Shown here in pieces: positions 26,849 through 32,110 of a DNA stretch of 64,000 bases. Every line of letters starts with the position of its first letter. The first letter of the stretch is position 1. Location of the stretch: the NCBI GenBank assembly GCA_022750115.1, contig JAKIWI010000006.1, positions 1 through 64,000 of the forward strand, in the 5' to 3' direction. Source of the stretch: Thermoplasmata archaeon. GTDB lineage: Archaea > Thermoplasmatota > Thermoplasmata > Lutacidiplasmatales > UBA184. Made by a program: the position numbers and the translations under genes. Below the pieces are notes generated by a model. That model was not told the DNA's origin. It searched no databases and worked only from the letters and a program-made list of their open reading frames with translations.

Positions 26849-27550
26849 GTGGACGTCGAGGGCTGCCCGCTCCCGGAGGACCGGCGCTACGACCTCGAGA
26901 ACGACGTGTGGGTCGCCGAGTCTCCGGGCACCGACCGACTGACGGTCGGAATGATGGCCCCGCTCGCCTCGTTCGCCGGCAAGTTCATCGCGTTGACATT
27001 CCGAGACCTTTCGGGCCCCCAACCGCGCGGCCGCAGCGTCGCGACCGCCGAGAGCGTCCGGTTCACCGGCGCGGTGCGACTTCCCGTCGCGGGGACGGTT
27101 CACGAGCGGAACGACGCCGTCCGATCGCGGCCGAAGCTCCTGAACGACTTTCCCTACAGCGACGGCTGGGTGGTCCGGGTCGTCCCGTCCGACCGGGACG
27201 AGTTCACCGCTCTCCCGACGGCCGACCAGGTCGCCGCCGAGGTTCGGCGAAAAGTCCGGGAGATGCGGATCCATTGCTTGCCCGCGGCCCCCGATGTCGA
27301 AATGTTCGAGATCGGCGCAGAGTGCCAGGCGATCCTGGTCCGCCTCGACGAGGAGATCGGGGGCCGCGCGGTCGGCGACGTCGTGCACCTGGTGACGGAC
27401 GACCCGACGGCCGCCATCGAGATGGTCCGCTGGTCGGACCGGAGCGGATACCCCGTCCTGCACCAGTGGGTCGAGGATCACCTCAGCCACTTCCTCGTGA
27501 GGAAAATCGCTGACCCGCGCCCGCGGCGCCGAGTCGTTCCGGTCGGCTGA
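26849..27550 (+). CDS. GcvH-like (lipoyl-domain fold) fused to TusA-like domain; lipoyl Lys and CPxP motif both substituted
   Basis: N-terminal half aligns with GcvH (TVGMMAPLASFAGK ... AESVRFTGAVRLPVAGTVHERNDAVRSRPKLLNDFPYSDGWVVRV). C-terminal half aligns with TusA (GAECQAILVRLDEEIGGRAVGDVVHLVTDDPTAAIEMVRW). GTG start. Confidence 0.8.
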   Translation: MDVEGCPLPEDRRYDLENDVWVAESPGTDRLTVGMMAPLASFAGKFIALTFRDLSGPQPRGRSVATAESVRFTGAVRLPVAGTVHERNDAVRSRPKLLNDFPYSDGWVVRVVPSDRDEFTALPTADQVAAEVRRKVREMRIHCLPAAPDVEMFEIGAECQAILVRLDEEIGGRAVGDVVHLVTDDPTAAIEMVRWSDRSGYPVLHQWVEDHLSHFLVRKIADPRPRRRVVPVG

Positions 27551-27559
27551 GGGGGCCGA

Positions 27560-28417
27560 TTAGGGCTTCTCGATCGGGCTACGGACCTGGTTGCCCCACT
27601 CGGTCCACGATCCGTCGTAGTTGCGGACGTCGGGGTAGCCGAGGAGATACTTCAGTACGAACCAGGTGTGGCTCGAACGCTCGCCGATCCGGCAGTAGGT
27701 GATCACCGGCTTCGAGCCGACGATCCCCTTCGCGTGATAGAGCGCTTGCAAGTCGGCGAAACTCTTGAACGTCCCGTCCTCGTTGACGGCCTGCGCCCAT
27801 GGGATGTTCGCGGCGCCCGGGATGTGGCCGCCGCGCTGCGCGTGCTCGTTGGGATACTCGGGGGGCGCGGTCACCTCGCCGGAGAACTCCTTCGGTCCCC
27901 GGACGTCGACCAGGCCGAGCCGGCCGCCCTTCACCTCCGGAAGGGCCGCTTTGACGGTGTCGAAGTAGGCGCGGAGCTTCTCGTCCCCCGCGTGGGCCTC
28001 GGCGGAGCCGGGGGCCGTGTGGGGAACGTCCTTCGTGAGCGGGCGGTCCTCGGCGATCCACTTCTTCCGGCCGCCGTTCATCAGTCGGACGTCCTTGAAC
28101 CCGTAGTACTTCAGCACCCAGAACGCGAACGCCGCGAACCAGTTGTTGAAATCCCCGTAGAGCACCAGCGTGGTGTCCGCGTTCACGCCGGTGCGGTGGT
28201 ACAGCTTGGTGAGCGCCTCGACCGAGAGCAGGTCGCGGGCGACCGGGTCGTTGATGTCGGATTTCCAGTCGATCAGGACGGAGCCCGGCACGTGGCCCAA
28301 CTGGTAGTTCGCCGACGGGTCGTAGTCGACCTCCGCCACGCGGACCTTCGGGTCGTGGAGATGGTCGGCGACCCAGGCGGTCTCGACGAGGGTTTCGGGG
28401 TGGGCGTAGGAACTCAT
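27560..28417 (-). CDS. Two-domain rhodanese (thiosulfate/3-mercaptopyruvate sulfurtransferase)
   Basis: GHVPGSVLIDW, GLVDVRGPKEFSGE, GHIPGAANIPW, active-site loop YCRIGERSSHTWFVLKYLLGYPDVRNYDGSWTEWG. Confidence 0.93.
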   Translation of the reverse strand: MSSYAHPETLVETAWVADHLHDPKVRVAEVDYDPSANYQLGHVPGSVLIDWKSDINDPVARDLLSVEALTKLYHRTGVNADTTLVLYGDFNNWFAAFAFWVLKYYGFKDVRLMNGGRKKWIAEDRPLTKDVPHTAPGSAEAHAGDEKLRAYFDTVKAALPEVKGGRLGLVDVRGPKEFSGEVTAPPEYPNEHAQRGGHIPGAANIPWAQAVNEDGTFKSFADLQALYHAKGIVGSKPVITYCRIGERSSHTWFVLKYLLGYPDVRNYDGSWTEWGNQVRSPIEKP

Positions 28418-28524
28418 GAGAGCCTCCGGCCGCGGACGGGACCTCCGGCGATATAGAGGGAGCGGAGCGCGCATTCGGCGCACACCCGCGCCGGCGGCAC
28501 GCCCGGATGGCCGGATTCGGCCGA

Positions 28525-28842
28525 CTATCCGCGCCGACCGCGCTTGGGCAGCTGGGCGTTCGACACCTCGACCGTCTCGGGGTCGAAGCCGAGCCGCGCG
28601 AGCTCGTCGCGGATCCTCAGGCGGTGGTCGCCCTGCAGGTAGACCTCGCCATCGACGACGGAGCCGCCCGTGGCAAGGCGGTTCTTCAACGAGCGCGTCG
28701 TCTCCGCGAGGTCGACGCCGGGTGGGAAGCCGGAGATCACCGTGGCCGGCTTGTTGTACCGTCGCGGCTCGGCGCGGACGCGGATGCGCGCGGTCTCCCG
28801 GTCGAGCGCGGAGAGGATCTCGTCGAACTCGTTGTTCCCCAT
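28525..28842 (-). CDS. Translation initiation factor aIF1 (SUI1 family)
   Basis: RRYNKPATVISGFPPGVDLAETTRSLKNRLATGGSVVDGEVYLQGDHRLRIRDELARLGFD. Confidence 0.9.
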   Translation of the reverse strand: MGNNEFDEILSALDRETARIRVRAEPRRYNKPATVISGFPPGVDLAETTRSLKNRLATGGSVVDGEVYLQGDHRLRIRDELARLGFDPETVEVSNAQLPKRGRRG

Positions 28843-29011
28843 CGGTGCGATGCTTCCTACCAACTCCCCCGCGGGAAGGGGAGAACCGTGAAAATGGACT
28901 CGACCGGCAACGAACCAGAGCTCGTCGCGTTCGCCGGTTCGGTCCTGTCGAGGGGCACCAGCCGTTCCATGCCGGGGGAACGGATGAACCTTTCCCGGTT
29001 CGTGGAACGGT

Positions 29012-29794
29012 TCACCGCTCGCCCCAGACGTAGATCCGGAGCGCGACGAGCGTGACGACCACCGCGAGGACGACGAGGAGCACCGCATACTCGACGAGGA
29101 CCAGCGGGGGGGCGGGGGTCAGGCCGAACGCACCCTGGACCAGGAGAGCGGCGTACGTGGACGGCACGAAGTGGCAGGCGATCTGCCAGGGCACCGGAAG
29201 GATCGAGAGGGGGTAGTAGAGCGGCGTCAGCATCCCGATGACCGTGAACGCGAGGTTGCCGATCGGCCAAATCTCCCGCTGCGACTTCACCCGGCTCGAG
29301 ACCGCGATGCCGATGGCGCTGAACAGCACCCAGATCACGAGGAGCGCCCCGATCAGGACGAGCCACGGCCCGATGGAGTGGCTCGCCGGGTCGACGTAGA
29401 GTAGGATGCCGGCGAGGACGGCGAGGGCGGGCAACGCCGGGATCAGGTTCGACACCGCGATGCCGATCAGGTAGCGGAACTTCCCGAGCGGGGAGGCGAC
29501 GAACAGGTCCTGGAGCGACGCTTCGATCCGCCACGTGGCGGAGTCGCCGAGCACCCAGTTGCCGATGTTCTGGGTGGTGAACAGCATCGCGCCCACCACC
29601 TCGAGCGGGAAGTAGCTCGCGGGCGAGATCAGGTGGAGAAAGTAGAGGAAGATGAACGGGAGCATGATCGGGGCGATCGTCGACGCCGGGTTGCGGCTGA
29701 TCCACCGCCAGCCGAGGATCCCGAACGCGGGGAGGACGCGGCCCGTGGTCGGGAGCCCGCCGGGGGAGCTCGAGGAGCCGAGCGCGGTCGCCAT
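29012..29794 (-). CDS. ABC-2 type transporter permease
   Basis: Six-TM-type hydrophobic protein, directly downstream of a second permease and an ABC ATPase. Confidence 0.8.
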   Translation of the reverse strand: MATALGSSSSPGGLPTTGRVLPAFGILGWRWISRNPASTIAPIMLPFIFLYFLHLISPASYFPLEVVGAMLFTTQNIGNWVLGDSATWRIEASLQDLFVASPLGKFRYLIGIAVSNLIPALPALAVLAGILLYVDPASHSIGPWLVLIGALLVIWVLFSAIGIAVSSRVKSQREIWPIGNLAFTVIGMLTPLYYPLSILPVPWQIACHFVPSTYAALLVQGAFGLTPAPPLVLVEYAVLLVVLAVVVTLVALRIYVWGER

Positions 29795-31576: not shown

Positions 31577-31975
31577 CTAGTCGCCGCAGCCGCAGCCGCC
31601 GCCGTTCTCGGCGTTCGAGCCGCAGGAGTTGCAGCCGCCCTGGAGGCCCGCCGCGTCCGGTTCCGGGAGCGTCGGGTTGGTGATCTTGAATCCCGACTCC
31701 TCGATCGACTCGACGTAGTCGATCACGGCGCCGTTGACGAACGGGATGCTGGAGGGGTCGACGATGACCGAGAATCCGTCGATGGCGACGACCTCGTCGT
31801 CGCGCCGCGGCTTGGCGAACGCCATGCCGAACTGGACGGCGCTTCCGCCGCCGCAGCATCCGCCCCCGCCCGGCTGGGCGTAGACGCGGACCGCGACACC
31901 GCTCGTCTGACCGGCCATCAGCCGGCGCACCTGCACCATCGCCTCCGGCTTGACCTCGAGCTGAACCGCTGCCAT
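31577..31975 (-). CDS. A-type carrier (HesB/IscA-like) with Cys-rich C-terminal extension
   Basis: MAAVQLEVKPEAMVQVRRLM...GGGGCCGGGSAVQFGMAF ... FVNGAVIDYVESIEESGFKITNP ... GGCNSCGSNAENGGGCGCGD. Confidence 0.8.
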   Translation of the reverse strand: MAAVQLEVKPEAMVQVRRLMAGQTSGVAVRVYAQPGGGGCCGGGSAVQFGMAFAKPRRDDEVVAIDGFSVIVDPSSIPFVNGAVIDYVESIEESGFKITNPTLPEPDAAGLQGGCNSCGSNAENGGGCGCGD

Positions 31976-32110
31976 CCGCATTCCTCCGACCCCTCTAGCC
32001 GCAAGGGGGGGTTTAAGCTCTTTCTCTCCCAAGCTGCCCCCGGGACCAGGGTACCTGCACGCCACTTGGCCGATCGGGGCGGGGGAGACTGGCGGGGAGG
32101 GTGCCCCCCG

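Follow-up and report, generated by a model that had tools for sequence, protein, structure and literature searches.

We describe a gene of a soil Thermoplasmata archaeon, found in a 64,000-nt stretch of DNA (the window), whose product joins an LbpA-like and a TusA-like domain and probably represents a one-chain sulfur carrier that is widespread in soil archaea and so far undescribed. We propose, with a probability of roughly 0.6, that it is a lipoate-free carrier of sulfane sulfur, fed by the neighboring rhodanese, which merges the TusA and LbpA steps of sHdr delivery. No description of a GcvH/LbpA–TusA fusion was found in the literature searched, which left many subscription papers outside its reach. 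Each half is of an already known kind, and the novelty lies in the joined variant. The features of the locus are as follows.

26849–27550 (+), LbpA–TusA fusion gene, 233 aa (ORF, Pfam, AlphaFold, Foldseek)
26864–26866 (+), Cys6, the N-terminal LbpA signature cysteine (64/64; signature from PMC6067878)
26885–27244 (+), LbpA/GcvH-fold half, residues 13–132 (Pfam GCV_H; domain tree)
27059–27061 (+), Arg71 at the lipoyl-lysine position (variable among 64 members)
27275–27277 (+), Cys143, the C-terminal LbpA signature cysteine, in the linker (64/64)
27320–27505 (+), TusA-fold half, residues 158–219 (Pfam TusA; Foldseek; PF01206 search)
27323–27325 (+), Cys159, the TusA catalytic cysteine, with C[SAQN]A[VTI] in place of CPxP (64/64)
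27560–28483 (-), convergent rhodanese of the thiosulfate sulfurtransferase type, CRIGERS with Cys264 (Pfam, relatives in the PDB, adjacency)

Fusion gene and predicted fold

The ORF starts with GTG, and its boundaries agree with those of the first-pass annotation. A search for sigma-70-type promoters and terminators gave none, which is uninformative for an archaeon. In Pfam, GCV_H matched residues 13–132 (E = 4.5e-18) and TusA residues 158–219 (E = 8.5e-4, below the Pfam cut-off for the window copy); among the relatives, the two families were matched by 64/64 and 61/64, respectively (best TusA E value, 1.2e-10). A genome search with PF01206 also gave the match at 27320–27505. The score against TIGR00527, the NCBIfam gcvH equivalog, was 47 bits, under the cut-off of 115.85. 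The AlphaFold model, calculated with an alignment of 64 relatives, had a mean pLDDT of 96.9 and a pTM of 0.88, and Foldseek matched its first half with GcvH (3a8i, TMt 0.90) and its second half with Escherichia coli TusA (3lvj_C, TMt 0.87). The two halves are thus predicted to take GcvH-type and TusA-type folds, and Pfam, AlphaFold, and Foldseek agree with the earlier proposal, for which a structural check had been suggested, that both occur in one chain. A close homolog (72% identity) is present in the record of Candidatus Lutacidiplasma silvani.

The segment AESVRFTGAVRLPVAG of the fusion and E. coli AESVKAASDIYAPVSG are ungapped in the alignment with PDB 3a8i, and the lipoyl lysine is therefore replaced by Arg71. 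The TusA cysteine is Cys159, within GAECQAI, where CPxP has become CQAI; in the AlphaFold model, the first TusA-domain helix (residues 159–171) begins with it. Both substitutions, with the cysteine kept, had been read correctly in the first-pass annotation. Its heading, that both catalytic attachment motifs are lacking, is right for the lipoyl lysine but wrong for the TusA half, which retains the catalytic cysteine.

The fusion shares the fold and the position of the active cysteine with TusA (PF01206), but its TusA half sits behind an LbpA domain with the conserved Cys143 upstream, and C[SAQN]A[VTI] stands at the CPxP position in nearly all members. CPxP was absent from every fusion homolog examined, which could mean an altered chemistry in this half. 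With GcvH (PF01597) it shares the fold, whereas it differs in the loss of the lipoyl lysine in the window copy, in the extra cysteines, and in its gene context, as no glycine-cleavage context was seen at the fusion.

Cysteines and the lipoyl site

Cys6, Cys143, and Cys159 are invariant across 64 diverse members and are also kept in 18/18 more distant full-length members, so that the "single thiol" of the first-pass annotation has to be given up in favor of three. In contrast to these cysteines, the residue at the lipoyl position varies (Arg in 47 of the 64 members, Lys in 12, Thr in two, and Ile, Asn, and Val in one each). On a tree built without the lipoyl column, at least nine changes among Lys, Arg, and other residues are required, and close relatives differ from each other (Arg in L087 and Lys in L086 and L090; Arg in L095 and Lys in L097). 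Of the two residues whose conservation had been asked about, Cys159 is therefore invariant, but Arg is not. Homologs with an intact Lys and CPxP had been named as the finding that would point to a local decay; Lys occurs in the 12 members and CPxP in none, and local decay is not borne out.

PF21948, the family of LplA-type ligases, had no match in 22 of the 30 Nitrososphaeria fusion carriers tested, including two whose fusion bears Lys (L042 in genome G404 and L086 in G483), while the same search found ligases in 12/14 control genomes. The window genome has two LplA-type matches in this search and a separate canonical GcvH with its Lys intact. Since a modified lysine is not exchangeable with arginine and no ligase was detected in many carriers, the fusion family appears to need no lipoylation, as the first-pass annotation had supposed for this protein. 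As judged from the aligned homologs, constraint on the lipoyl site has been lost family-wide, not by local decay.

Ancestry of the first half

When 50 GcvH-fold domains are placed in a tree, the fusions group as a single clade (100/98), and the sister of this clade is a group of archaeal LbpAs from sHdr-type clusters (96/96); the fusions are sister to these LbpAs and not nested in them. Among single-domain proteins, the first half has its closest relatives at the loci L119–L127, whose clusters contain HdrC-like Fer4, HdrB-like CCG, DsrE, and lipoate ligase genes (annotated in L123 and partly in L125), a gene content that identifies them as the sHdr type. In the LbpAs of these loci, the lysine is retained, and both the N-terminal and the C-terminal cysteine are present. 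Cao et al. 2018 (PMC6067878) characterize LbpA by a lysine and two cysteines, all three strictly conserved, with the cysteines close to the N and the C terminus, respectively. The counterpart of Cys143 is present in the archaeal LbpAs and missing from canonical GcvH. The sister position and the cysteine pair together suggest that the first half derives from an LbpA, whose cysteines it kept and whose lysine came free of constraint. The domain tree thus places its descent next to archaeal LbpA, and "GcvH-like" is not the best name for it. LbpA of the sHdr pathway (PMC6067878) and the fusion have the GcvH fold and both signature cysteines in common; however, LbpA is a single-domain protein with a strictly conserved lipoyl lysine, encoded in shdr clusters with a ligase, whereas the fusion carries an additional TusA domain, varies at the Lys position, and has a rhodanese gene as its partner.

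In other Nitrososphaeria, loci containing HdrB-like CCG genes, checked in L134, have a second GcvH-like gene that also bears Arg for the lipoyl lysine (IESGRRIVLLRAP) and adjoins an LbpA-like gene with an intact Lys (L134, 6332–6730; L135, 3220–3717 and 3717–4094; L136, 3027–3476). This Arg is possibly a parallel loss.

Pairing with a rhodanese

The rhodanese consists of two tandem domains with an active-site cysteine (Pfam Rhodanese, E = 6.8e-34), and its closest solved structures are the Thermus rhodanese 1uar and 3hwi, an entry named thiosulfate sulfurtransferase. The active-site motif CRIGER[SA], including the catalytic Cys, is present in 86/86 rhodanese copies. In the window, the two genes converge, as had been noted, but 9 nt, and not 10 bp, separate their stop codons. 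The rhodanese lies tail-to-tail within 300 nt of the fusion in 66 of 81 distinct loci (2–233 nt between the ORF ends), a set that includes two loci ending right after the gene. Of the 18 more distant members, 11 have the rhodanese immediately upstream and codirectional with the fusion, and two have it in the convergent orientation. Several fusion loci have no rhodanese at the fusion. The occurrence of two different gene arrangements argues for a functional tie and not just shared descent of the locus.

In Thermoplasmata (31 genomes), the rhodanese was found in 15/15 genomes with the fusion versus 1/16 without it (Fisher 6e-8, with kinship ignored), and in Nitrososphaeria, in 40/40 versus 27/40. 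The rhodanese tree splits the fusion-adjacent copies from 14 non-adjacent copies (SH-aLRT 100), and six other non-adjacent copies nest within the adjacent ones. Conservation of the gene pair extends over two archaeal phyla, with the rhodanese active site intact, and is a stronger link than the first-pass annotation had claimed.

Distribution and genomic context

A profile search (E ≤ 1e-50) found the full-length fusion in 97/400 sampled Thermoplasmata genomes, and in Nitrososphaeria it was detected by profile search in 46/300 genomes, with some copies on multi-megabase contigs. Beyond Nitrososphaeria, the sample of that phylum also contained more divergent members. The Thermoplasmata family f25 sits among Nitrososphaeria in the fusion tree (branch support 91), so the gene has likely passed between the phyla. 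The plasmids searched contained no fusion, just ordinary GcvH/LbpA matches. One Nitrososphaeria copy (L103, 5795–6508, the same as L080) has an in-frame TGA between the halves, which may stem from a sequencing error or mark the copy as a pseudogene or a split gene.

No shdr cluster was present in the fusion flanks examined, where the rhodanese was present. The other recurrent neighbors (eIF1/SUI1, ABC transporter, and AHSA1) are local to Lutacidiplasmatales and absent elsewhere; the SUI1/eIF1-domain gene of the window (28525–29088, -) follows the rhodanese, and its homologous ORF recurs at Lutacidiplasmatales loci only. A further candidate neighbor, "C2", was rejected, as it was merely an ORF antisense to the rhodanese. 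The window also encodes an Fe–S biosynthesis protein (31577–32065, -; PF01521, HesB-type) with a C-terminal tail rich in cysteine and glycine.

The search of the window genome gave no sHdr-type LbpA relative. Only some carriers have an sHdr-type LbpA in addition to the fusion, and a requirement for sHdr was rejected. The fusion is the sole TusA-family match in the window genome (G000, assembly ~90% complete), in which no stand-alone TusA was found, and most other carriers have at least one ordinary stand-alone TusA as well. The SUOX-type molybdopterin family PF00174 is present in 31/40 carriers versus 11/40 non-carriers, an incomplete co-occurrence (Fisher 5e-4 and 0.011 in two groups, with kinship ignored). 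Sulfite oxidation from thiosulfate was predicted for Lutacidiplasmatales (Sheridan et al. 2022, PMC9287336). Together, the co-occurrence and this prediction favor an oxidative role of the fusion.

Proposed function

Here, we propose a mechanism based on the variable lipoyl residue beside three invariant cysteines, which supports a lipoate-free carrier, and on the rhodanese pairing and the sHdr-type LbpA ancestry, which support a sulfur carrier made as one chain. The neighboring thiosulfate sulfurtransferase would charge Cys159 with a persulfide, and the sulfur would then move to Cys143 or Cys6 of the LbpA half, unless an acceptor docked on that half takes it over. We infer the persulfide chemistry, the direction of flow, and the order of the cysteines. 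The fate that we favor is oxidation of the sulfane sulfur to sulfite and then to sulfate, because the sulfite oxidase-type molybdopterin protein co-occurs with the fusion. In PMC11582611, the sHdr route is given as rhodanese to DsrE3C to sHdr-LbpA, with TusA possibly involved, and the delivery by rhodanese, TusA, DsrE, and LbpA in Hyphomicrobium is cited. The same kinds of carrier (rhodanese, TusA, and LbpA) appear to be joined here, but TusA and LbpA share a single chain, lipoate is dispensed with, and an shdr cluster is usually lacking. More tentatively, a lipoate-independent sHdr-type delivery by the rhodanese and the fusion, with cysteines replacing the lipoyl arm, might feed the oxidation of sulfane sulfur to sulfite and sulfate in ammonia-oxidizing-type Nitrososphaeria and soil Thermoplasmata; this wider proposal is possible but doubtful.

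The same carrier could instead serve biosynthesis (tRNA thiolation, molybdenum cofactor, or Fe–S), in which case the rhodanese would supply the sulfur and the LbpA half would act as a docking domain. E. coli TusA serves such pathways, according to PMC11582611 and its references, and the fusion, being the only TusA-type match in the window genome, might have assumed the general role of TusA there. We consider this rather unlikely, as most other carriers have their own stand-alone TusA, the patchy presence in Nitrososphaeria is unlike that of an essential biosynthetic step, and the LbpA ancestry points to the sHdr route. That ancestry also speaks against a redox or sensor protein, in which the three cysteines would form a disulfide switch or a metal site and the rhodanese pairing would reflect a response to reactive sulfur. 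Such a role would account for cysteines that are invariant although there is no lipoyl arm, and SoxR of sulfur oxidizers switches via a sulfur bridge between two cysteines (PMC11582611); however, the fusion has no DNA-binding or effector domain, and Cys159, which begins the first TusA-domain helix in the model, aligns with the catalytic cysteine of TusA, which makes the sensor improbable.

A lipoylated carrier that keeps Lys where it is needed and serves the glycine cleavage system or an sHdr complex would fit the Lys-bearing members and the two LplA-type matches of the window genome. It is very unlikely, because the residue swaps even among close relatives, two genomes whose fusion bears Lys gave no PF21948 match (G404 and G483), and the window genome has a separate GcvH with an intact Lys. 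The motif changes at the lipoyl and CPxP sites and the in-frame TGA in one MAG copy might suggest a decaying or misassembled, functionless gene, but this is refuted by residues invariant across two phyla, the confident predicted fold, the conserved rhodanese pairing, and copies on large single contigs. The lipoate-free one-chain carrier is therefore the reading that we prefer.

Lipoate is regarded as the functional group of LbpA. An archaeal family of wide distribution that keeps the LbpA cysteines but drops the lipoyl lysine separates the two roles and makes that of the cysteines testable. It also points to an unrecognized sulfur-handling module, tied to a thiosulfate sulfurtransferase, in soil archaea that are abundant and not counted among the known sulfur oxidizers.
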